In this document: positions 20,840 to 31,720 of the stretch, piece after piece | Numbering within the stretch: the first letter of the stretch is position 1 | Layout: every line of letters begins with the position of its first letter | NCBI RefSeq assembly: GCF_014873535.1 | Contig: NZ_JADBEF010000001.1 | Span: 2,294,001 to 2,358,000 of the forward strand | Reading direction: 5' to 3' | DNA: 64,000 bases | DNA from: Nonomuraea africana | GTDB lineage: Bacteria > Actinomycetota > Actinomycetes > Streptosporangiales > Streptosporangiaceae | Made by a program: the position numbers and the translations under genes | The notes under the pieces: model-generated | What the model was told of the DNA's origin: nothing | The model's input: only the letters and a program-made list of their open reading frames with translations | Database searches by the model: none

Positions 20840-20943
20840 TCGATCGCCGCCGCGCTGGTCGAGGCGCACGGCGGCACGATCGGCGCCGCCTCGCCCCAGG
20901 GCGGAGGCGCGGTCTTCGTGGTCAGGCTGCCCGCCTACGCGCC
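20840..20943 (+). pseudogene. C-terminal tail of a sensor histidine kinase
   Basis: About 34 codons encode SIAAALVEAHGGTIGAAS followed by GGGAVFVVRLPAY. This is the last part of the HATPase domain (helix after the G2 box, then the final strands) of a two-component sensor kinase. Nothing upstream in the frame continues the kinase, because the truncated adaptor gene begins there on the other strand. It also overlaps the last bases of the GntR gene. A remnant. Confidence 0.65.
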
Positions 20944-21693
20944 GCCGGCCGCCTCCTCGCCTGCTGCCTCCTCGAGGAGCACGCCGAGCGCGCCCTCGGG
21001 CAGGTAGGGGGAGTAGAAGTCGCTGAGCGCCTGGCGGGCCAGCCGCGCGGCCAGCGGGCCGTCGCCGGCCCTGACCGCGGCCAGCGCCTCCTCGTGGTGG
21101 GCGATGCTGCGGGCGCGCAGCTCGGGCGCCCTGATCTTGTCGGCGATCAGGTTCACCACGATGGAGCGCACCACGTCGCTGCAGATCTGGATGAGCTTGT
21201 TGCCGCTGGCCCGCGCCACCGCGTCGTGGAAGTCCACGTCGGCCGCGCCGAACTCCTCCTCGCCCTCGGCGGCCCGCATCCGCGCGATCGCCGCGTCCAT
21301 CTCCGCCAGCTGCGAAGGGGTGTGGAGCCTGGCCGCCAGCAGGTAGGCGGCGCCCTCCAGCACCATCCTGAACTGCACCAGCTCGGCGAGTGACAGCTCG
21401 TCCACCCTGGCCAGCGTGGTCATCGACTTGTGCAGCGCGGCGGGCGTGAACGGCAGCACCTCCGCGCCGTGCGGATCGCCGGGCCGCGACCTCACCATCC
21501 CGCGCGCCTGGAGCACCCGCAGCGCCTCGCGCACCGTGGAACGGCTCACCGAGAACTGCACCATCAGGTCGCGCTCGCTCGGCAGCCGCTCGCCGGGGCG
21601 CAGCTCACCGCTCTCGACGGCGTGCTCGATCTGCTCGACGATGCGCTCGTAGGCGCGGACAGTCCGTACAGGTTGGAACCGAGGTCCGCTCAT
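20935..21693 (-). CDS. GntR family (FadR/FCD) regulator of ABC/peptidase operon 2
   Basis: A 252-residue regulator: winged helix-turn-helix with SERDLMVQFSVSRSTVREALRVLQARGMV (about 39-67) and an FCD domain (about 95-230) with FHDAVARASGN and SIAHHEEALAAV, the usual ligand/metal-binding positions. ATG 21693 is preferred over GTG 21696 because GAGG lies seven bases before it. It is divergent from the binding-protein gene at 21781 and faces a perfect TGGTC-N-GACCA operator that is repeated upstream of the SDR gene at 31220. Likely a repressor relieved by a pathway intermediate. Confidence 0.87.
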   Translation of the reverse strand: MSGPRFQPVRTVRAYERIVEQIEHAVESGELRPGERLPSERDLMVQFSVSRSTVREALRVLQARGMVRSRPGDPHGAEVLPFTPAALHKSMTTLARVDELSLAELVQFRMVLEGAAYLLAARLHTPSQLAEMDAAIARMRAAEGEEEFGAADVDFHDAVARASGNKLIQICSDVVRSIVVNLIADKIRAPELRARSIAHHEEALAAVRAGDGPLAARLARQALSDFYSPYLPEGALGVLLEEAAGEEAAGGA

Positions 21694-21704
21694 CACGCCC
21701 CCTC

Positions 21705-21740: not shown

Positions 21741-21764
21741 CTACTGGTCAGACCAGTGCACTAG
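21741..21764. promoter_or_regulatory. GntR operator, copy 1 (before operon 2)
   Basis: ACTGGTC-A-GACCAGT (21743-21757) is a perfect palindrome that fits the FadR-subfamily rule TNGTNNNACNA exactly. It is followed by an overlapping AGTGCACT palindrome (21755-21762). The whole 24-bp stretch is repeated with one change at 31234-31257. It ends two bases before the AGGAGG of the binding-protein gene. Confidence 0.8.
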
Positions 21765-21780
21765 CCAGGAGGCTTAAGGC

Positions 21781-23265
21781 ATGAGGCGCTTCGGCATCTG
21801 GATGGCCCTCGGCGGCCTCCTTCTCAGCGCGGCCTGCGGTGGCGGCTCCGCGGGGACCCCCGCGACCGCGGCCAAGCCGCTCGCGGTGGGCTTCGTCGCC
21901 GAGCCCGCCAACCTCGACTTCACCGCCACCGAGGGCGCGGCGATCCCGCAGGCGTTGCTGGTCAACGTCTACGAGGGCCTGGTCAAGCTCGACCAGGACG
22001 GCAAGATTCAGCCCCTGCTGGCGGAGAAGTGGGAGGTCTCGCCCGACAACAAGACCTACACCTTCACCCTGCGCAAGGGCGTCACCTTCACCAACGGCGC
22101 GCCGTTCACCGCCGACGACGTCGTCTTCTCCGTCGACAGGGTGAAGTCCGACTGGAAGCTGAAGATCAAGACCCAGATGGACGTCGTCGACAAGGTGGAG
22201 AAGAAGGACGACCACACCGCCGTCGTGACGCTGAAGCGGCCGAGCAACGGCTGGCTCTACTCGATGGCCACCAGGTTGGGCGCGATGTTCAGCCGCACCG
22301 GGGTCGCCGACCTGGCCAACAAGCCCGTCGGCACCGGCCCCTACCAGCTCGGCTCGTGGAAGCGCGGCGACTCCATCCAGCTCACCGCCAACGAGAAGTA
22401 CTGGGGGACCAAGCCGCAGGTCCCGCGGATCACGCTGAAGTACTTCAAGGACGCCACGGCGATGAACAACGCGCTGCTCACCGGCGGCATCGACATCATC
22501 TCCGCGGTCCAGGCGCCCGAGTCGCTCGCGCAGTTCGCCGACCCCAACCGCTTCCAGGTCGTCGAGGGCACCACCAACGGCGAGGTGGTGCTGTCGATGA
22601 ACAACGCCCGCCCGCCCTTCAACGACAAGAAGGTACGGCAGGCCGTCCGCCACGCCATCGACCACAGGGCGCTGCTCGACACCGCCTGGGCGGGGCGCGG
22701 CCAGCTCATCGGCAGCATGGTGCCGCCCACCGACCCCTGGTACGAGGACCGCACCGGCGACTACCCCTACGACGTCGCCAAGGCCAAGGAGCTGCTCGGC
22801 GGCAAGACCCACAACGTGAAGATGCGCATCCCCAACCTGCCCTACGCGGTCGCGGCGGCGCAGGTGGTCAAGTCGCAGCTGGCCCAGGTCGGCATCAACG
22901 CGGAGATCGACCCGCTGGAGTTCCCCGCCAGGTGGCTGGACGTGGTGTTCAAGCAGGGCGACTACGACCTGTCGATCATCAACCACGTCGAGCCCCGCGA
23001 CATGGGCATCTTCGCCGACAAGTCGTACTACTTCCACTACGACAATCCCGAGTTCGGCAAGCTGCTCGCCTCCGCCGACTCCGGCACCGAGGAGGAGCAG
23101 GCCGCCGACCTGAAGGCCGCCGCCAAGCTCCTGTCCGACGACGCCGCCGCCGACTGGCTGTTCCTCTTCCCCAACCTCATCGTGGCCAGGAAGGACGTCA
23201 CGGGCGGGCTGCCGAAGAACGGCATCTCCGAGGCCTTCGACTTCACGGCCCTCACCAAGCAGTGA
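21781..23265 (+). CDS. Peptide-type ABC transporter substrate-binding lipoprotein (operon 2)
   Basis: A 494-residue family 5 solute-binding lipoprotein; the lipobox LSAAC gives Cys19. Typical segments are PANLDFTATEGAAIPQALLVNVYEGL, FTLRKGVTFTNGAPFTADDVVF (family signature) and RQAVRHAIDHR. AGGAGG at 21767-21772 stands eight bases before the ATG, and the GntR operator immediately precedes it. It is the first gene of an eight-gene operon. The downstream peptidases make a peptide or other amide the likely ligand, which is inference. Confidence 0.9.
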   Translation: MRRFGIWMALGGLLLSAACGGGSAGTPATAAKPLAVGFVAEPANLDFTATEGAAIPQALLVNVYEGLVKLDQDGKIQPLLAEKWEVSPDNKTYTFTLRKGVTFTNGAPFTADDVVFSVDRVKSDWKLKIKTQMDVVDKVEKKDDHTAVVTLKRPSNGWLYSMATRLGAMFSRTGVADLANKPVGTGPYQLGSWKRGDSIQLTANEKYWGTKPQVPRITLKYFKDATAMNNALLTGGIDIISAVQAPESLAQFADPNRFQVVEGTTNGEVVLSMNNARPPFNDKKVRQAVRHAIDHRALLDTAWAGRGQLIGSMVPPTDPWYEDRTGDYPYDVAKAKELLGGKTHNVKMRIPNLPYAVAAAQVVKSQLAQVGINAEIDPLEFPARWLDVVFKQGDYDLSIINHVEPRDMGIFADKSYYFHYDNPEFGKLLASADSGTEEEQAADLKAAAKLLSDDAAADWLFLFPNLIVARKDVTGGLPKNGISEAFDFTALTKQ

Positions 23266-24200
23266 TCGCGTATCTGGCCAAGCGGGTCGCGGTGCTCCTG
23301 GCGAGCACCGCGACCGCGGGTGTGGTCGTCTTCGCCTTCATGGCGCTGCTGCCGGGCGATCCCGCCGAGGTCGCGCTGGGCGTCAACGCCACGCCGGAGG
23401 CGGTCGAGGCGCTGCGCGGGCAGTGGGGCACCGACCGGCCGCCGCTGACGCAGTTCCTCGACTGGATCGGCGGGCTGGCCACCGGCGACTTCGGCGTCTC
23501 CTACGTCACCAGCTCGCCCATCGGCCAGCAGATCGGCGAGCGCCTCGGCGTCACGCTCACCCTGGTGCTCGGCGGGATGGTGATCGCCCTGATCGTCGCG
23601 GTCCCCGCCGGCACCTTCGCCGCGGTCCACCACCGCAACCCGCTCGGGGCGCTCATCAGCGCGTTCAGCCAGGTCGGCATCGCCGTCCCGGCCTTCCTCG
23701 CGGGCATCCTGCTGGTGTTCGTCTTCGCGGTGCAGGCCCAGGCGCTGCCGTCGGGCGGCTACGTGCCGCCGGCCGAGAACCCGTCGATGTGGTTCCAGTC
23801 GCTGCTGCTGCCGTGGCTGTCGCTCGGGCTGGTCCAGGGCGCGGTCCTCACCAGGTACGTGCGCAGCGCCGTGCTCGAGGTGATGCGCGAGGACTACCTG
23901 CGCACCGCCCGCGCCAAGGGCAGGGGCCGCATGGGCGCGCTGTGGCGGCACGGCCTGCGCAACGCGGCCATCCCCGTCGTCACCGTGCTCGGGCTCCAGC
24001 TGGCCACGCTGCTGATCGGCGCGGTCGTCGTCGAGCGGGTCTTCGTCATCCCCGGGCTCGGCGACCTGCTGCTGAACGGCGTCGCCCAGCGCGACCTGCT
24101 GCTCGTCCAGGGAGTGGTCATGCTGCTCGTGGTGGCCGTCCTGCTGGTGAACTTCGTGGTGGACGTCGCCTACGCCGTCCTCGATCCGAGGTTGCGATGA
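23262..24200 (+). CDS. ABC transporter permease, DppB type (operon 2)
   Basis: A 312-residue permease: TM1 (VAVLLASTATAGVVVFAFMALL) followed by the family segment PGDPAEVALG, periplasmic loop with GDFGVSYVTSSPIGQQI, and EAA loop EDYLRTARAKGRGRMGALWRHGLRNAAIP. It ends YAVLDPRLR. The start is GTG 23262, overlapping the binding-protein stop (GTGA). It forms the channel with the next gene product. Confidence 0.92.
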   Translation: MIAYLAKRVAVLLASTATAGVVVFAFMALLPGDPAEVALGVNATPEAVEALRGQWGTDRPPLTQFLDWIGGLATGDFGVSYVTSSPIGQQIGERLGVTLTLVLGGMVIALIVAVPAGTFAAVHHRNPLGALISAFSQVGIAVPAFLAGILLVFVFAVQAQALPSGGYVPPAENPSMWFQSLLLPWLSLGLVQGAVLTRYVRSAVLEVMREDYLRTARAKGRGRMGALWRHGLRNAAIPVVTVLGLQLATLLIGAVVVERVFVIPGLGDLLLNGVAQRDLLLVQGVVMLLVVAVLLVNFVVDVAYAVLDPRLR

Positions 24201-25018
24201 GAGGGAACCTGGTCATCGGCGCCGTCCTGGTCGGCCTCACGGTGCTGGCCGCGCTGGTGTCGTTCGTCTGGACGCCGCACGACCCCACGCTCGTGGACGC
24301 CGCTCATCGGCTCGCCGCTCCCGGCGGCGACTACCTGCTCGGCACCGACAAGTTCGGCCGCGACACGCTCAGCCAGCTCATGGTCGGCGCGCGCACCACA
24401 CTGTACGTCGGCATCGTCGCGGTCGGCATCGCCGCCGTGATCGGCACGCCGCTCGGCATGGTCGCGGGCATGACGCCGCACGGCTGGCTCTCCGAGCTGA
24501 TCATGCGGGTCAACGACCTGGTGTTCGCCTTCCCCGCCCTGCTGCTCGCGGTCATGCTCGGCGCCGTCTACGGGGCCGGCACGCTCACCGCCATGGTCGC
24601 GATCGGCGTGGCCACGGTGCCCGCCTTCGCCCGCATCGCCCGCGCGGCGACCATGCAGGTCATGGTGACCGACTACATCATGGCCGCCCGCGCCGCCGGA
24701 CGGCGCGGCTTCGCCATCGCGCTGCGGCACGTCCTGCCCAACATCGGCTCCATGCTCATCGTGCAGGCGTCGGTCTCCTTCGCCATCGCCATCCTCGCCG
24801 AGGCCGCTCTGTCCTTCCTCGGCTTCGGCACCAGGCCGCCGACCCCCTCGTGGGGCCGGATGCTGCAGGAGGCGCAGGAGCTGCTGTTCTCCACGCCGCG
24901 CCTGGCCCTGTGGCCGGGGCTCGCGATCGCGCTGGCCGTCCTCGGCTTCAACCTGCTCGGCGACGGCCTGCGCGACCACCTCGACCCGAAGCTCAGGAGG
25001 ATCCGTGCTGAGCGTTGA
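24197..25018 (+). CDS. ABC transporter permease, DppC type (operon 2)
   Basis: A 273-residue permease with the DppC landmarks LGTDKFGRDTLSQLMVGART near the N terminus, EAA loop TDYIMAARAAGRRGFAIALRHVLPN and the end GFNLLGDGLRDHLDPKLR. ATG 24197 overlaps the previous stop (ATGA). Its last 14 bases overlap the next ATPase gene, whose Shine-Dalgarno lies inside it. Confidence 0.92.
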   Translation: MRGNLVIGAVLVGLTVLAALVSFVWTPHDPTLVDAAHRLAAPGGDYLLGTDKFGRDTLSQLMVGARTTLYVGIVAVGIAAVIGTPLGMVAGMTPHGWLSELIMRVNDLVFAFPALLLAVMLGAVYGAGTLTAMVAIGVATVPAFARIARAATMQVMVTDYIMAARAAGRRGFAIALRHVLPNIGSMLIVQASVSFAIAILAEAALSFLGFGTRPPTPSWGRMLQEAQELLFSTPRLALWPGLAIALAVLGFNLLGDGLRDHLDPKLRRIRAER

Positions 25019-25901
25019 GGGACTCACCGTCCGGGCCGACGACGTGGAGTTGGTGCGCGACGTGTCGTTCGGCATCGCGCCCGGTGAGCGCGTCGGCCTG
25101 ATCGGCGAGTCGGGCTCGGGCAAGTCGCTCACCGCGCTCTCGCTGATGGGACTGCTGCCCGAGGGGGTCAGCGCCACGGGCTCGGCGACCCTCAAGGACC
25201 AGCCGCTGCTCGGCGTGCCGGAGAAGCGGGTGAAGAGCCTGCGCGGCAGGGTCGTGTCGATGGTGTTCCAGGAGCCGATGACCGCGCTCAACCCGACCAT
25301 GCGCGTCGGCGCCCAGGTGGCCGAGGTCATGACGCTGCACGGCGTGCCGCGCGCCGAGGCGAGGGAGCGCTCCCTCGACCTGCTGCGGCGGGTCGGCGTC
25401 GAGGCCCCCCGCGCCTACCCGCACCAGCTGTCCGGCGGGCAGCGGCAGCGGGTGATGCTGGCCATCGCCCTGGCCAACGAGCCGTCGCTGCTCATCTGCG
25501 ACGAGCCCACCACCGCGCTCGACGTGACCGTGCAGAAGCAGATGCTGGAGTTGATCGTCGAGCTCGCGCCCGCGGTGCTGTTCATCACCCACGACCTCGC
25601 CGTCGTCGCCTCCGTCTGCTCCCGCGTGCTCGTGATGTACGGCGGGCGCGTCGTGGAGAGCGGCCCGCTGCGCGAGGTGTTCGCCAACCCCCGCCACCGC
25701 TACACCGAGGGACTGCTCGCCGCCTCCAGGCTCACCCCGCGCGGCACCCGCCTGCCCACCATCCCCGGCGCCGTCCCCTCCAGGTTCCCCTCGGGCTGCC
25801 CGTTCAGGGACAGATGCGCCCACGCCTCGCCGACGTGCGAGGACGCCCCAGCGTTGACAGGAGAGGGCCATGCCTACGCCTGCTGGCACCCCCGTGATTG
25901 A
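25005..25901 (+). CDS. ABC transporter ATPase, DppD type (operon 2)
   Basis: A 298-residue ATPase: Walker A GESGSGKS (about 34-41), Q-loop VFQEPMTALNPTM, signature LSGGQRQRV, Walker B LLICDEPTTALD, H-loop THD, and a C-terminal oligopeptide-transporter domain with CPFRDRC. GTG 25005 is preceded by AGGAGG at 24996-25001, which decides the start despite the 14-base overlap. Unlike operon 1, permease and ATPase are separate genes here. Confidence 0.92.
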   Translation: MLSVEGLTVRADDVELVRDVSFGIAPGERVGLIGESGSGKSLTALSLMGLLPEGVSATGSATLKDQPLLGVPEKRVKSLRGRVVSMVFQEPMTALNPTMRVGAQVAEVMTLHGVPRAEARERSLDLLRRVGVEAPRAYPHQLSGGQRQRVMLAIALANEPSLLICDEPTTALDVTVQKQMLELIVELAPAVLFITHDLAVVASVCSRVLVMYGGRVVESGPLREVFANPRHRYTEGLLAASRLTPRGTRLPTIPGAVPSRFPSGCPFRDRCAHASPTCEDAPALTGEGHAYACWHPRD

Positions 25902-26655
25902 GGCCCGCGACCTCACCCGCGTCTACCGCTCCTCACGCTTCAAACCCGGCGTCGAGGCGCTGCGCGGCGTGTCGCTCGAGATCGGGCGCGGTGAGCGGTT
26001 CGGCATCGTCGGCGAGTCAGGCTCGGGCAAGTCCACGCTGCTGCGCCTGCTGTGCGGCCTCGACCGGCCGACCAGCGGCTCGGTCCGCTTCGAGGGCAGG
26101 GAGATCACCGGGCTCGGCGAGCGGCAGCTGCGCTTCCTGCGCGACGACCTGCAGATCGTCTTCCAGGACCCGATGAGCTCGCTCGACCCGCGGATGAGGG
26201 TCCGCGACATCGTCGCCGAGCCCCTCGTCGCCCTCGGCAGGCCGGTCGGCGACCGCGTGGCCCAGCTCCTGACCGAGGTCGGGCTGCCCGCTTCGGCGGC
26301 CGACCGCTACCCGCACCAGTTCTCCGGCGGGCAGCGCCAGCGCATCGCCATCGCCCGCGCTCTCGCGCCGAACCCGAAGGTGCTGGTCGCCGACGAGCCC
26401 GTCAGCGCGCTCGACGTCTCCGTGCGCGGCCAGATACTCAACCTGCTGGCCGACCTCATCGACACGCACGGGCTCACCCTGGTCTTCGTCTCGCACGACC
26501 TGTCCGTCGTGCGGCACGTGTGCGAGTCCGTCGCGGTCATGCACCGCGGCGTCGTCGTCGAGCGCGGCCTCGTCGACGACGTGTGGTCGGCTCCCCAGCA
26601 CGACTACACGCGGACGCTGCTGCAGGCCGTACCCACTCTGGAGGGACTGCTGTGA
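25870..26655 (+). CDS. ABC transporter ATPase, DppF type (operon 2)
   Basis: A 261-residue ATPase with Walker A GESGSGKST (about 47-55), Q-loop VFQDPMSSLDPRMRV, signature FSGGQRQRI, Walker B VLVADEPVSALD and H-loop VSHD. It lacks the cysteine-containing C-terminal domain that its partner has. ATG 25870 follows GACAGGAGAGGG and overlaps the DppD-type gene by 32 bases. The stop overlaps the M20 start by four bases. Confidence 0.9.
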   Translation: MPTPAGTPVIEARDLTRVYRSSRFKPGVEALRGVSLEIGRGERFGIVGESGSGKSTLLRLLCGLDRPTSGSVRFEGREITGLGERQLRFLRDDLQIVFQDPMSSLDPRMRVRDIVAEPLVALGRPVGDRVAQLLTEVGLPASAADRYPHQFSGGQRQRIAIARALAPNPKVLVADEPVSALDVSVRGQILNLLADLIDTHGLTLVFVSHDLSVVRHVCESVAVMHRGVVVERGLVDDVWSAPQHDYTRTLLQAVPTLEGLL

Positions 26656-27833
26656 TCGAGATCGATGCCCAGGGAGTCGTGGAGTTCACCCAGGAACTGG
26701 TCCGCGTCCCCAGCACCAACGACCCCGCCCGCGGGCGCAGCGAGCAACCGGCCGCCGACCTGGTCGCGGCGAAGATGCGTTCGTGGGGCTGGGACGTCGT
26801 GGTCGAGGAGGCCGCCCCCGGCAGGCCGAACGTCGTCGCCGTGGTCGAGGGCGGCGGGGGCGAGGGCCCCACGCTGATGTTCGAGGGCCACACCGACGTG
26901 GTGACCGAGGGCGACCTGTCGGAGTGGACCGTCGACCCGTTCGGCGGCGAGATCCGCGACGGCAGGCTGTGGGGCCGCGGCAGCGCCGACATGAAGTCCG
27001 GCCTGGCCGCCGTCCTGTACGCCACCAGGGCGCTGCAGCTGGCCGGGCCCTTCCCCGGCCGGATCAAGGTGTGCGCGCTGGCCGACGAGGAGGGCCTGAT
27101 GATCGGCGCCCACCACTTCGTCAACTCCGCCCTGTCGGAGGGCGTCGACGCGGCCATCGTGGCCGAGCCGGAGGCGGGCGAGATCTGCGCCGTCGCCAAG
27201 GGGGCGCTGCGGCTGCGCGTCGACTTCACCGGCAAGATGGCGCACGGCGCGATGCCGCAGCACGGGCGCAACCCGATCCAGGCGGTGGGCGCCCTGCTCG
27301 TCGCCCTGCGCGCCTACCAGGAGGAGCTGCAGGCCGCCCATCCCGCGCACGAGCACCTCGGCGAGGTGTACGTCACGCCGACGGTCGTTCAGGCGGGCAG
27401 CCAGGAGCAGGTCAACGTCATCCCCGCGGTGGCCGCCGTCTTCGTCGACGTGCGCACCGTTCCCGGCGTCGCGCACAAGGAGGTCGCCGACAGGGTCGAG
27501 GAGCTGGCCGCCTTCGACGGGATCGAGTCGCGGGTCGCCATCCTGGTGGACCGGCCGCCCGTCGAGGTGCCCGTCACCCACCCGGTCGTCACCGCCCTCG
27601 CCGCCGCGCACACCGCCGTGACCGGCGACGAGCCGGTGTACGGCGGCGTGCCGGGCTCCACCGACGGGACCGTGCTGACGCACTGGGGCGGGATCCCCTC
27701 CGTGGTGTACGGGCCCGGCGGCAAGTGGATCGCGCACCAGGCCGACGAGTTCGTGGAGGTCGAGGAGATCGTCCGCTGCACCCGCGTCTTCGCCGAGGCC
27801 GCGCGGCGCTTCCTCACCGGCGCCGGCCAATGA
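26652..27833 (+). CDS. M20 family peptidase/deacylase (ArgE/DapE type)
   Basis: A 393-residue cytosolic zinc amidohydrolase. Conserved metal and catalytic segments are in order: EGHTDVV (His and catalytic Asp), GRGSADMKSG (bridging Asp), ADEEG (general base Glu), AEPE, and the C-terminal AHQADEF with the last His. A dimerisation insert sits between about 175 and 300 (GKMAHGAMPQHGRNPI). The family removes acyl groups or cleaves C-terminal amides of small peptides. GTG 26652 overlaps the ATPase stop. In this operon it should act on the imported compound. Confidence 0.88.
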   Translation: MIEIDAQGVVEFTQELVRVPSTNDPARGRSEQPAADLVAAKMRSWGWDVVVEEAAPGRPNVVAVVEGGGGEGPTLMFEGHTDVVTEGDLSEWTVDPFGGEIRDGRLWGRGSADMKSGLAAVLYATRALQLAGPFPGRIKVCALADEEGLMIGAHHFVNSALSEGVDAAIVAEPEAGEICAVAKGALRLRVDFTGKMAHGAMPQHGRNPIQAVGALLVALRAYQEELQAAHPAHEHLGEVYVTPTVVQAGSQEQVNVIPAVAAVFVDVRTVPGVAHKEVADRVEELAAFDGIESRVAILVDRPPVEVPVTHPVVTALAAAHTAVTGDEPVYGGVPGSTDGTVLTHWGGIPSVVYGPGGKWIAHQADEFVEVEEIVRCTRVFAEAARRFLTGAGQ

Positions 27834-28900
27834 GGCGGGGAGCGACCAACTCGCTGGCCGACGTCGAAGGGCTCAGGGTCGGCCACGCCCAGCGGGTCGG
27901 CGACGGCTACCGGACCGGCGTGAGCGTGGTGCTGGCCCCGCCCGGCGGCGCGGTCGCGGGCGTGGACGTGCGCGGCGCGGCCCCCGGCACCCGCGAGACG
28001 GAGCTCCTCGACCCGCGCAACCTCGTCGAGCGCGTCCACGCGATCGTGCTGACCGGCGGCAGCGCCTACGGGCTGAGCGCCGCGTGCGGCGTCATGGCGC
28101 GCCTGGCCGACGCGGGGACCGGCTTTCCCGTCGCCGGTGGCGTGGTTCCCATCGTGCCCAGCGCCGTCATCTACGACCTGGGCAGGGGCGGCGCCTTCCG
28201 CGCCACGCCCGACGCGGCGATGGGCGCCGCCGCGTACGACGCGGCCATCGCCCCCGCAGGCGGCCCACCCGGCCTCGCCCAGGCCGGTTCCGTGGGTTTC
28301 TCGCCGGACGGGGCCGGGCCCGGTCATGCGGCCAACGGGTCGGTGGGCGCGGGCACCGGCGCGGTGGCCGGAGGGCTGGCCGGCGGCGTCGGGACGGCGA
28401 GCGCGGTCCTGCCCTCGGGGATCACCGTCGCCGCGCTGGCCGTCGTCAACGCCGCGGGCTCGGTCCTGGACCCGGGCAGCGGCCTGCTCTCGGGCACCCG
28501 GTACGGCCTGCCGGGCGAGTTCGACCACATCGTCGAGCCCGACGCCGGCGAGTACGAGCGGTGGCGCCCGGAGAAGGCGCCCTCGTTCAACACCACGATC
28601 GGCGTCGTCGCCACCGACCTCACCCTGTCCAAGGCCCAGTGCGGCAAGCTCGCGGGCGTCGCGCACGACGGGCTGGCCAGGGCGATCAGGCCCGCGCACA
28701 CGATGGTCGACGGTGACACCATCTTCGCGCTGTCGACCTGCGGCCTGCCGGGCCCCGAGGACACGGACCTGCACGACGTGCTGGCCGCGGCGGCCGACGT
28801 CTTCAGCAGGGCCGTGGCGCACGCCGTCCTGCATGCAACGGGCAGGGCCGGCGCCCCCGCGTACCTGGATGTGTTCTCTAGCGCACGGAGCGGACGATGA
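27830..28900 (+). CDS. P1 (S58, DmpA-type) self-processing aminopeptidase
   Basis: A 356-residue P1 family peptidase. Family landmarks are TNSLADVEGLRVGHAQ at the N terminus, VLTGGSAYGL, the glycine-rich GSVGAGTGAVAGG, and SFNTTIGVVATD, where self-cleavage before a Thr (Thr255 by my count) frees the catalytic N-terminal residue of the beta chain. Characterised members remove N-terminal D-, beta- or L-amino acids or hydrolyse amino-acid amides. The ATG overlaps the M20 stop (ATGA). With the M20 gene it suggests an unusual amide or peptide substrate. Confidence 0.85.
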   Translation: MRRGATNSLADVEGLRVGHAQRVGDGYRTGVSVVLAPPGGAVAGVDVRGAAPGTRETELLDPRNLVERVHAIVLTGGSAYGLSAACGVMARLADAGTGFPVAGGVVPIVPSAVIYDLGRGGAFRATPDAAMGAAAYDAAIAPAGGPPGLAQAGSVGFSPDGAGPGHAANGSVGAGTGAVAGGLAGGVGTASAVLPSGITVAALAVVNAAGSVLDPGSGLLSGTRYGLPGEFDHIVEPDAGEYERWRPEKAPSFNTTIGVVATDLTLSKAQCGKLAGVAHDGLARAIRPAHTMVDGDTIFALSTCGLPGPEDTDLHDVLAAAADVFSRAVAHAVLHATGRAGAPAYLDVFSSARSGR

Positions 28901-30318
28901 GAGAAGGGCTGCCGATCGGTGCAGGCTGGCTGCCGGTCGAGGAGACGGCCGAGGTGGTCTTCCCCTACGACGGGAGCACGGTGGGGCGGGCCCCCGTCGG
29001 AACCGTCGAGCTGGCCAGGAGAGCCGTCGACGAGGCGCTCGCGGTGGCGGGCGAGATGGCCAGGACGCCGTCGCACGCCCGCCGCGCCGCGCTGATGGGC
29101 GCGCACGACGCGTTGCGGGCGCGCACGGAGGACTTCGAGCGGCTGCTCGTGCTGGAGACCGGCAAGCCGCTGGTCGACTGCAGGGTCGAGGTCGCCAGAA
29201 CCCTGGTCACGCTGGCCACGGCCGCCGAGGAGGTGGCCAGGCTGCACGGGGAGACCGTGCCGCTCGACCTGCTGCCCGCGGGCGAGGGCCTGGTCGGGTT
29301 CTGGACCAGGCGGCCGATCGGCGTGGTCGTCGGGATCACCGGGTTCAACTACCCGCTGCTGCTGGCCGCCCACAAGATCGCTCCGGCACTGGCGGCGGGC
29401 TGCCCGGTGATCGTGAAGCCCGCTCCGGCCACCCCGCTGGCGACGCTGCTTCTGGTGGAGCTGCTGCGCGAGGTCGGCGCCGTGCCCGCCGCGGCCGTCC
29501 AGCTCGTCACGGGCGACGTGGAGGTGGGCAGGGCGCTGGTGGAGGACCGGCGGATCGGCGCCGTCTCGTTCACCGGCTCAGCCGCCGCGGGCCACGCCAT
29601 CGCCCGCAACGCCGCCCCCACCAAGGTGGTGCTGGAGCTGGGGTCGAACGCCGCGCTGGTGGTCGCGGCCGACGCCGACCTCGAGGCCGCGGCCGACGCC
29701 GTGGTGCGCGGCGGGTACTACGCGTCGGGTCAGGCGTGCATCTCGGTGCAGCGGGTGGTGGTCGAGGAGGCGGTGCGGGCCGACTTCCTCGACCTGCTGG
29801 CCGCCCGGATGAAGGACGTGGTCGTGGGCGACCCCCGCCTGCCGGAGACGAGGGTGGCGCCGCTGATCGACCAGACCGCCACGCGACGCGTGCTCGGCTG
29901 GGTCGAGTCCGCGGTGGAGGCGGGCGCCCGGCTGGTGACCCCGCCCACGTCGCCGGATGCGGGCGTGATCACGCCGACCGTGCTGGCCGACGTGCCCGAC
30001 GGCGTGGCCGTGTGGGACGAGGAGATCTTCGGGCCGGTGGTGTGCGTGCGCGCCGTGGCCGACCTGGACGAGGCCTTCGAGACCGTCAACCGCTCCAGGT
30101 ACGGCCTGCACGTCTCCGTCTTCACCCGATCGCTGGCCACGGCGTTCGCCGCCATCGAGCGGCTGGAGGCGGGCGGCGTGGTGGTGAACGAGGTGCCGGG
30201 CTTCCGCGCCGACAACATGCCCTATGGCGGCGTCAAGGATTCGGGCATCGGCAGGGAGGGCCCGCGCTTCGCCATCGAGGAGTTCACGGTGACCAGAATG
30301 GCGATCATCCGCCCCTGA
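28897..30318 (+). CDS. NAD(P)-dependent aldehyde dehydrogenase
   Basis: A 473-residue ALDH. The active site is complete: Asn in GFNYPLL, general base Glu247 (LELGSNAALVV, where many relatives have ELGGN) and nucleophile Cys281 (GQACISVQRV), with the usual 34-residue distance; EEIFGPVVCV follows. It oxidises an aldehyde to the acid. ATG 28897 overlaps the P1 peptidase stop (ATGA); it is the last gene of the operon and converges on the SDR gene, which could supply the aldehyde. Confidence 0.9.
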   Translation: MREGLPIGAGWLPVEETAEVVFPYDGSTVGRAPVGTVELARRAVDEALAVAGEMARTPSHARRAALMGAHDALRARTEDFERLLVLETGKPLVDCRVEVARTLVTLATAAEEVARLHGETVPLDLLPAGEGLVGFWTRRPIGVVVGITGFNYPLLLAAHKIAPALAAGCPVIVKPAPATPLATLLLVELLREVGAVPAAAVQLVTGDVEVGRALVEDRRIGAVSFTGSAAAGHAIARNAAPTKVVLELGSNAALVVAADADLEAAADAVVRGGYYASGQACISVQRVVVEEAVRADFLDLLAARMKDVVVGDPRLPETRVAPLIDQTATRRVLGWVESAVEAGARLVTPPTSPDAGVITPTVLADVPDGVAVWDEEIFGPVVCVRAVADLDEAFETVNRSRYGLHVSVFTRSLATAFAAIERLEAGGVVVNEVPGFRADNMPYGGVKDSGIGREGPRFAIEEFTVTRMAIIRP

Positions 30319-30455
30319 CCCGCCATGGCCGAAGCAGCGCTCTTGGCCTCCGCTCGCGGCTCGGCGACGACCAGGCGTGGCGCCCTGGTCACCCCGCGGA
30401 TCACCGGCGGCAGGACGGCGCTGGAGTTCGGGACCACCCACGGCGCGGGTGCGGG

Positions 30456-31220
30456 TCAGTTCGGCGGGTTGAACCTGCCGTCCACCGCGGTCCAGCCGCC
30501 GTCCACGTAGAGGACCGAGCCCGTGACGAAGGTGGCCGCGTCGGAGGCCAGGTAGACCACGGCGCCGGCCATCTCCTCCGGACGCGCCCACCTGCCGAGC
30601 GCGGACTTGGCGGCGTAGGCGTCGTACCAGGCGGGCTCGTCCTTGATCTGGCGGGTGAGCGGCGTCTCGACCACGCCGGGCGCGATCGCGTTGACCCGCA
30701 CGCCCGACGGGCCGAACTCGGCGGCAGCGGTCCGCAGCAGCTGGACCAGGCCCGCCTTGGTGGCGGAGTAAACCCCCTGCCCAGGCTCGGTCACCGCTGC
30801 CCTGATGGAGGCGAAGCCGATGATCGAGCCCGTGCCACGCTCCACCATGCCGGCGCCGAAGGCCCGCACCACCTCGAAGGAGGCGCGCAGATTCAGGTCG
30901 ACGACCCGCTGGAACTCCTCGCCGGAGTAGTCGAGCAGCCGCTTGCGGACGTTGGTGGCGGCGGTGAACACCAGCACGTCGACGGCCCCGAGCGCGCCGG
31001 CCGTCTTCCGCACCGCCGCGGTGTCGAGCACGTCGAGAGACAGGGCCGAGCCGCCGCACGCCGCCGCGGTCTCCTCGGCGGCGGGCAGGTCGCGGTCGGC
31101 GCAGATCACCTCCGCGCCCTGGGCGGCCAGCGCCAGGGCGGCCTGCCTGCCGATGCCGCTGCCCGAACCGATGACAACCGCCCGACGCCCGTCAAGGCGG
31201 AACAACCGCTCGTAGTCCAT
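30456..31220 (-). CDS. Short-chain dehydrogenase/reductase under the same GntR-type operator
   Basis: A 254-residue classical SDR: cofactor loop GSGSGIG (about 18-24; Ser instead of the usual Thr at the motif start), acidic D42 region in CADRD, catalytic Ser138, Tyr151 and Lys155 (YSATKAG), and the C-terminal LYVDGGW. It faces the ALDH gene. A TAGGGT -10 lies six bases before the ATG, suggesting a leaderless transcript, and the ACTGGTC-N-GACCAGT operator sits immediately upstream of it. The near-identity with the operator of operon 2 places it in the same regulon. Probably an alcohol dehydrogenase step. Confidence 0.87.
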   Translation of the reverse strand: MDYERLFRLDGRRAVVIGSGSGIGRQAALALAAQGAEVICADRDLPAAEETAAACGGSALSLDVLDTAAVRKTAGALGAVDVLVFTAATNVRKRLLDYSGEEFQRVVDLNLRASFEVVRAFGAGMVERGTGSIIGFASIRAAVTEPGQGVYSATKAGLVQLLRTAAAEFGPSGVRVNAIAPGVVETPLTRQIKDEPAWYDAYAAKSALGRWARPEEMAGAVVYLASDAATFVTGSVLYVDGGWTAVDGRFNPPN

Positions 31221-31233
31221 GGCCGAACCCTAT

Positions 31234-31257
31234 CTACTGGTCGGACCAGTGCACTAG
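31234..31257. promoter_or_regulatory. GntR operator, copy 2 (before the SDR gene)
   Basis: ACTGGTC-G-GACCAGT at 31236-31250, followed by GCACTAG. The 24-bp stretch matches 21741-21764 at 23 positions; the only difference is the central base of the palindrome. On the minus strand it is three bases upstream of the SDR -10 (TAGGGT, 31232-31227). The acetyltransferase gene starts 25 bases away on the other strand. Confidence 0.85.
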
Positions 31258-31282: not shown

Positions 31283-31720
31283 GTGCTCATCGAGGAACGC
31301 CCGCTCGCCGACCCCGAGCTCCAGACCCTGCTCGAGGCGGCCTTCGCGGAGCTCGTCGCCCGCTACGGCCCCGAGGGGCGCTCGGGCGTGGACCCCGCCG
31401 CCCGCTTCCTGGTCGCGGTGTCCGACGGGCGGGCGGTCGCGTGCGCCGCCCTCCAGCCGGTGGACGGCCGGACGGGCGAGGTCAAGCGGATGTACGTCCT
31501 GCCGTCGCACAGGGGACGGGGCGCGGCCAGGGCGCTGCTGAAGGCGTTGGAGACGCTCGGCGCCGAACTCGGCCACACGCGCCTCAGACTGACCACGGGA
31601 ATCCGCCAGCCCGAGGCGATCGCGCTGTACGAGAGCTCGGGATACACGCGGATCCCCGCGTACGGCAAGTACGTCGACGAGCCGACGAGCCGGTCCTACG
31701 GGAAGGCGCTCGGGGGGTAG
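31283..31720 (+). CDS. GNAT family N-acetyltransferase (small)
   Basis: A 145-residue acetyltransferase with the acetyl-CoA loop VLPSHRGRGAARALL (motif A, Q/RxxGxG/A) and the C-terminal ALYESSGYTRIPAYGKY of motif B. The GTG start has no Shine-Dalgarno, but TAGAGT at 31271-31276 ends six bases before it, so a leaderless mRNA is plausible. It is divergent from the SDR gene and shares its operator region; whether it belongs to that regulon is unknown. Substrate unknown. Confidence 0.8.
   Translation: MLIEERPLADPELQTLLEAAFAELVARYGPEGRSGVDPAARFLVAVSDGRAVACAALQPVDGRTGEVKRMYVLPSHRGRGAARALLKALETLGAELGHTRLRLTTGIRQPEAIALYESSGYTRIPAYGKYVDEPTSRSYGKALGG

Follow-up and report, generated by a model that had tools for sequence, protein, structure and literature searches.

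In a 64,000-nucleotide stretch of the genome of Nonomuraea africana, a soil actinobacterium (contig NZ_JADBEF010000001.1, forward-strand positions 2,294,001 to 2,358,000; hereafter the window, numbered from its first letter), two nearly identical 24-bp elements bracket a cluster of transport and catabolic genes that lies beside a gene for a GntR-type regulator. We propose that this GntR protein binds both elements as operators, and that the regulon so defined would serve the import and degradation of pantetheine or pantothenate; the probability of this combined statement is put at roughly 0.66. Conservation of the elements indicates that they are almost certainly operators of a local FadR-type regulon. 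That the substrate of this catabolic regulon is pantetheine or pantothenate seems reasonably probable from the gene families present. Coordinates of all features are collected in Table 1.

Probable operator sequences in the window and the genome

The first-pass annotation of the window had described two elements, at 21741-21764 and 31234-31257, that agree in 23 of 24 bases and differ at the palindrome centre alone, and comparison of the two 24-mers confirmed this. The core ACTGGTCNGACCAGT was found exactly at 21743-21757 and 31236-31250 in a search of the window. The sequence TGGTCNGACCA is present at both sites and, as the annotation had also stated, fits the rule TNGTNNNACNA for FadR-type operators as quoted in the accessible part of PMC2230225. 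Across the 9,694,534-base genome, exact matches to the core number two, both of them the sites in question; the core read backwards, used as a control, has no exact match in the genome and 0-2 per genome across 54 genomes of the genus. With up to two mismatches allowed, the core occurs in 43 places (2 exact, 1 with one mismatch and 40 with two) and the control in 202; because the control is the commoner of the two, such near-matches carry no signal. The genome's one-mismatch site falls inside the coding sequence of a gene resembling ferredoxin reductases, and was rejected as a further target on that ground. Within the window, a search at three mismatches returned 6 matches against a shuffle mean of 2.55, a weak excess that was reached by 5 of 100 shuffles. 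The weight of the operator case is placed on the exact matches and on other genomes, and not on this window-only test.

The domain matches of the GntR protein to PF00392 and PF07729 are both above cut-off, which assigns it to the FadR subfamily (FCD type); its scores against the NCBIfam models for NanR (114.6 bits; cut-off 260) and LldR (75.9 bits; cut-off 311) fall far below both thresholds. Operator 2 occupies a 62-bp gap between the start of a short-chain dehydrogenase/reductase (SDR) gene (31220, - strand) and that of a GNAT acetyltransferase gene (31283, + strand), 25 bp before the latter, and therefore faces two genes. The GNAT gene is probably a bystander; it adjoins the site in 1 annotated relative only (G034), and the idea that operator 2 has it for a conserved target was not supported.

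Conservation within Nonomuraea

The genus sample comprised 54 Nonomuraea genomes, and the surroundings were retrieved for all 49 relatives bearing the GntR gene. Regulator and exact site are each present in 50/54 genomes, and the same four lack both (G006, G032, which is 63% complete, G037 and G040). Site 1 stands between the GntR gene and the substrate-binding protein gene of an ATP-binding cassette (ABC) importer in all 50 genomes with the regulator, the window included, and 48 of the 50 have at least two exact sites. Second sites were looked at in 45 of those 48 (G044, G050 and G053 were left out of the count) and every one lies just upstream of the SDR gene, at 15-17 bases from its start codon in the 42 genomes counted; this holds in G038 and G014 as well, where the SDR gene is inverted. 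Of the two genomes with one site, G002 has the SDR gene on the operon strand and an aldehyde dehydrogenase match in two pieces, with no S58 gene found in the stretch; G052, where a site with one mismatch stands before the SDR gene, showed neither S58 nor aldehyde dehydrogenase.

A scan of the complete genome and of relatives had been set beforehand as the test of the annotation's proposals, and in related genomes both sites do adjoin homologous genes. That the elements would be operators of the neighbouring FadR-subfamily GntR is supported by the co-occurrence of site and regulator across the genus and the family (below), and the place of the second site argues for the further suggestion that the oppositely oriented SDR gene is tied into the regulon. 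The operator is conserved beside the regulator and the target genes alike, and the regulon is small and old.

A third exact site was found in 3 genomes (G003, G026 and G048), and in each it precedes another S58 gene, by about 60-90 bases counted to the start of the frame or match. Two of these further S58 genes (L124 and L130) were read in translation, and in both a signal-like stretch comes first. The third sites hint independently at a link between the regulator's role and S58 chemistry. As a separate observation, Nonomuraea candida (L189) has a reduced cluster, in which a one-mismatch site precedes the importer, and GntR, S58 and aldehyde dehydrogenase genes were not found in the stretch.

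Conservation beyond the genus

Among 250 genomes of the family, the GntR (E 1e-50) was detected in 24 (22 from the genus and 2 others), all 24 of which carry the exact site; family genomes without the GntR carry it in 4/226 cases, and one of these four (G229) has a 43%-identical GntR beside the site. The locus in G229 (L157) appears as a diverged cousin, with GntR, substrate-binding protein and permease 43%, 44% and 49% identical and the same exact site, and may serve another substrate. In the class (394 genomes), the GntR (E 1e-45) was detected in 11, of which 8 are outside the genus; the GntR proteins of these 8 are 41-64% identical, and the site within the cluster is exact in 6, with one mismatch in 1 and with two mismatches in 1.

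A scan of named genomes was performed with an alignment of the SDR, and the best 80 of at least 563 confirmed stretches were kept as named loci; these best 80 come from Nonomuraea, Amycolatopsis, Kribbella, Kibdelosporangium, Streptomyces, Micromonospora, Cryobacterium, Arthrobacter and other genera. For the 48 GntR genes whose loci include 250 bases or more of upstream DNA, the best match within 1800 bases has 0 mismatches in 25, 1 in 18, 2 in 4 and 4 in 1 (L249). As a control, 124 stretches, each of 1800 bases, were taken from permease and ATPase genes, which are coding DNA, and none reaches 2 mismatches. Seventeen of 18 distant genomes picked for showing the site have no second exact one. 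The eighteenth, Kribbella pratensis (G642, the genome of L199), has five exact sites, and its regulon is perhaps larger. Two loci, L173 and L174, have the order GntR-site-M20-aldehyde dehydrogenase-SDR with an SSF symporter nearby, and the ABC importer and S58 genes were not found in them.

Flanks, promoters and gene order

The readings of -10 and -35 elements were taken from aligned flanks. The flank of site 1 reads CTAGTGC/T in 47/50 genus genomes and that of site 2 CTGGTGC/T in 39/42, and the full 7-nt flank matches between the two sites only in the window and the relative G034. The first-pass annotation had taken the shared flank to suggest recent duplication or a longer recognition site; a site longer than the core may exist inside the genus, whereas the distant loci inspected at class level do not preserve this flank.

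Ahead of the ABC operon, 45/50 genus genomes have TTGAC and CA[AG]TGT at 17-18 bp spacing, and by the position of these elements transcription of the operon would start at the operator. Toward the GntR gene, a hexamer TAGGCT that overlaps the operator is kept in 49/50 by column counts. Before the SDR gene, a -10-like hexamer follows the operator and ends 6-8 nt ahead of the start codon in 40/42 genus sequences, and this promoter looks near-leaderless. All three promoter positions would suit repression.

In 56 of the 80 named loci (55 of them outside Nonomuraea), the SDR gene follows genes for aldehyde dehydrogenase, importer or hydrolase on the same strand, no more than 1.8 kb downstream, and in 1 of those 56, Nonomuraea endophytica, an operator stands within 300 bases of the SDR gene. 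In the other 24 loci the SDR gene is detached or inverted; 19 of these have the operator, all 19 in Nonomuraea, and five lack it (L189 from N. candida, L196, L197, L211, and L201 near a contig end). The SDR gene of Nonomuraea thus stands apart from the operon with its own operator, and three inverted SDR genes outside the genus (L196, L197 and L211) are counter-examples.

Proposed regulon and pathway

Bacterial pantothenate degradation proceeds through pantoate and beta-alanine, then 4-dehydropantoate, then 3,3-dimethylmalate, to 2-oxoisovalerate and CO2. We suggest that the genes of the window could provide such a route under one repressor. The GntR protein (FadR subfamily, FCD) would bind both 24-bp operators; operator 1 would cover the point where transcription of the ABC operon is presumed to start and overlap the -10-like hexamer of the GntR gene itself, and operator 2 would lie within the SDR promoter. 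The repressor would keep all three promoters shut until a catabolic carboxylate, as inducer, released it. The family-5 ABC importer would take up pantetheine or pantothenate, the ThnT-like S58 protein would cleave pantetheine to pantothenate and cysteamine, and the M20 deacylase would cleave pantothenate to pantoate and beta-alanine. The SDR would then oxidise pantoate to 4-dehydropantoate and the aldehyde dehydrogenase would oxidise this to 3,3-dimethylmalate; in several relatives, an Iso_dh-family enzyme would complete the route by oxidative decarboxylation to 2-oxoisovalerate.

Neighbouring frames in the run from M20 through S58 to aldehyde dehydrogenase share a few bases. The M20, aldehyde dehydrogenase and SDR genes all stand behind the same operator sequence, so that an amide hydrolase is, on sequence alone, predicted to be co-regulated with an alcohol and an aldehyde dehydrogenase.

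Among solved relatives, the operon's S58 protein matches ThnT at 305 bits and the next family at 155; DmpA, BapA and NylC are all more distant from it than ThnT. An Asn-Thr-Thr motif aligns with ThnT, and its Asn-Thr we take to be the self-cleavage site. The further S58 protein of L130, encoded behind a third operator, likewise has ThnT first among solved structures (246 bits against 175). The other S58 gene of the N. africana genome (L153, G000:C1:3314798-3315766) served as a control: its product matches the DmpA/BapA-type aminopeptidases at 299 bits and ThnT at 30, and no site of up to one mismatch was found in its stretch. In the accessible parts of the sources, ThnT is termed a pantetheine hydrolase (PMC13062082) and is described as acting on a pantetheinyl group to leave cysteamine (PMC6097109).

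For the amide-cleaving step, counts of M20, amidase, S58 and aldehyde dehydrogenase genes were based on the 61 named loci with both importer and SDR. M20 is present in 10 and an amidase-signature protein in 48, with both in none and neither in 3. The amidase takes the place of M20 in other genera, and this exchange of two unrelated hydrolases suggests a single shared amide-cleaving step.

The Iso_dh protein opens the operon or adjoins it in several relatives, and its best NCBIfam score is to tartrate dehydrogenase, below cut-off. In 5 of 10 genomes checked, the cluster's Iso_dh is 66-100% identical to the query and the genome's other copies of the family 42-50%; in three Cryobacterium, strain 31B and one Arthrobacter, all Iso_dh copies are 42-45% identical. 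In Cryobacterium L240, Iso_dh is divergent from the aldehyde dehydrogenase and SDR genes, with an exact site between. A class III aminotransferase gene (L232:5773-7209), which could serve beta-alanine, stands next to the cluster's Iso_dh in one locus.

Table 1. Positions and supporting evidence of the putative operators, genes and further sites
Feature	Position	Strand	Remarks
FadR-subfamily GntR (GntR and FCD domains), presumed repressor	20935-21696	-	PF00392 74.6 bits, PF07729 83.1 bits; start ATG 21693 or GTG 21696
Putative operator 1	21741-21764	+	core 21743-21757; divergent promoter region, GntR gene and ABC operon
ABC substrate-binding protein, family 5 (dipeptide type)	21781-23265	+	PF00496 286.9 bits
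ABC permease 1	23250-24200	+	PF00528 123.2 bits; start approximate
ABC permease 2	24170-25018	+	PF00528 109 bits; start approximate
ABC ATPase 1	25005-25901	+	PF00005, PF08352
ABC ATPase 2	25870-26655	+	PF00005
M20 ArgE/DapE-type deacylase, candidate pantothenase	26652-27833	+	PF01546 118.1 bits; TIGR01910 258.6 bits (cut-off 217.6)
S58 hydrolase, ThnT-like, candidate pantetheine hydrolase	27830-28900	+	PF03576 191.2 bits; best solved relative ThnT 305 bits
Aldehyde dehydrogenase, candidate 4-dehydropantoate dehydrogenase	28897-30318	+	PF00171 451.5 bits; specific activity predicted
SDR, candidate pantoate 4-dehydrogenase	30456-31220	-	PF13561 204.9 bits, orthologue alignment; specific activity predicted
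-10-like hexamer TAGGGT	31227-31232	-	6 nt from SDR ATG; promoter predicted near-leaderless
Putative operator 2	31234-31257	+	core 31236-31250; 15 bp before SDR start codon (- strand)
GNAT acetyltransferase facing operator 2	31283-31720	+	PF00583 66.8 bits
Third exact site, G003	L124:1989-2003		precedes further S58 gene
Third exact site, G026	L130:2938-2952		precedes further S58 gene
Third exact site, G048	L149:2238-2252		precedes further S58 gene

Observations that weigh against the proposal

Several observations count against a pantetheine or pantothenate regulon as outlined above. According to the accessible part of PMC6097109, ThnT acts only once the pantetheinyl group is attached to the carbapenem core; because of this restriction, action of the S58 protein on free pantetheine would be a step further removed, and our confidence in the combined statement was lowered slightly. 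S58 is present in 12/61 loci, with a secreted type in 1 more, and aldehyde dehydrogenase was not found in 10/61 at the score used. The M20 and amidase counts come from related species, so that few events, and not independent ones, lie behind them. M20, SDR and aldehyde dehydrogenase are all broad families, and no listed model names them pantothenate enzymes. As to the decarboxylating step, the window's cluster has no Iso_dh; the genome has one match, 43% identical and outside the cluster, which is probably LeuB. Because a co-regulated decarboxylating dehydrogenase is absent from it, the window's cluster is likened to the pathway and is not filed as a complete member. The Iso_dh of L240 scores 442 against a cut-off of 393 for 3-isopropylmalate dehydrogenase, and may be LeuB itself. 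The SSF symporter of L173 and L174 scores 158.6 bits for MctP and 72.1 bits for PanF, and PanF-like import is not supported in these loci. Finally, the inverted SDR genes of L196, L197 and L211 (Planosporangium, Dactylosporangium and Micromonospora, respectively) have best sites with 5-6 mismatches.

Alternative explanations

The same GntR regulon could instead handle a peptide, beta-peptide or nylon-like amide, with S58 and M20 acting as peptidases and the aldehyde dehydrogenase and SDR oxidising a side product. The importer is of the dipeptide type, and nylon hydrolases belong to the S58 family alongside aminopeptidases of the DmpA and beta-peptidyl types. The operon's S58 protein is, however, much nearer to ThnT than to DmpA or BapA, unlike the other S58 protein of the genome, and after the ThnT comparison and this control a general peptide or nylon role became less likely. 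A set of SDR, aldehyde dehydrogenase and malate-type decarboxylating dehydrogenase is not needed for peptides, and an aminotransferase stands beside one scanned cluster only (L232), although no search throughout was made. We regard the peptide substrate as unlikely.

The regulon could also act on another hydroxymethyl hydroxy-acid amide, such as a hydroxyacyl ethanolamide or an amino-alcohol conjugate, through amide cleavage, oxidation of the alcohol to aldehyde and acid, and oxidative decarboxylation. Both the amidase/M20 exchange and the set of SDR, aldehyde dehydrogenase and Iso_dh would fit any such acid; the presence of S58 in a minority of loci and the inactivity on free pantetheine reported for ThnT (PMC6097109, accessible part) also suit it. 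Against these stand the ThnT kinship and the further S58 genes under a third operator, which point to pantetheine, and we hold a different amide to be distinctly unlikely.

It is very improbable that the sites are read by a different FadR-type regulator encoded in the genome, such as one for fatty acids or lactate. The FadR consensus and the Escherichia coli LldR box do share the core, as given in the accessible parts of PMC3626644 and PMC10272880, but site presence follows this GntR genome by genome, and the genome holds no further exact site. Recent duplication, or a repeat without regulatory role, would explain the agreement in 23 of 24 bases and is refuted to near certainty, since both sites are kept genus-wide, their flanks differ in nearly all other species and the sites track inverted genes.

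A regulon for pantetheine or pantothenate remains the reading we prefer. Its fullest form is about evenly poised between right and wrong: that a catabolic gene set for these compounds exists in the Actinomycetota under its own FadR-type repressor; that M20 and the unrelated amidase would be two versions of pantothenase; that SDR, aldehyde dehydrogenase and Iso_dh would be pantoate 4-dehydrogenase, dehydropantoate dehydrogenase and dimethylmalate dehydrogenase; and that ThnT would have been recruited from this S58 family.

Significance and comparison with known systems

The regulator and operator are of a known, textbook FadR-type kind, and it is the assignment of genes to a pathway that matters, if true. 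It would supply candidate genes for pathway enzymes that have none, pantothenase among them, and would point to an origin for ThnT, the thienamycin enzyme. The cluster also shows a gene that, in one genus, stands apart from its operon and carries its own copy of the operator. A 2023 paper (PMC10393543) calls the identity of the pantothenase protein unknown in its accessible part, and, according to that of PMC6027186, isobutyryl-CoA is common to the breakdown of pantothenate and of valine in pseudomonads. Among the papers listed by a literature search, run mostly without subscription papers, none names pantothenate-degradation genes in its title or abstract opening, which is not proof that they are unpublished.

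The 15-bp core is identical to the middle of the FadR operator consensus AACTGGTCNGACCAGTT (PMC3626644, as excerpted). The present system differs from that of FadR in that the regulator is of the FCD type, the exact sites are local, the targets are other genes, and the A and T at the ends of the consensus are not conserved. The E. coli LldR box AAnTGGTCnGACCAnTT (PMC10272880, as excerpted) has the same 11-bp core; in contrast to LldR and NanR, no lactate or sialate genes were seen here. GntR1 and GntR2 of the Corynebacterium glutamicum gluconate regulon are likewise actinobacterial FadR/FCD regulators, with 15-bp sites that follow TNGTNNNACNA with 1-2 mismatches. According to the accessible part of PMC2230225, their role is wider, covering gluconate and glucose uptake genes, whereas the present regulator is associated with one cluster and, in three genomes, a separate S58 gene.

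In relatives with Iso_dh, the enzyme classes match bacterial pantothenate degradation step for step, a likeness that is here one of sequence. ThnT, from thienamycin biosynthesis, is the closest solved relative of both the operon's S58 protein and the further S58 protein; it serves antibiotic synthesis, whereas the S58 gene described here lies within a catabolic operon.

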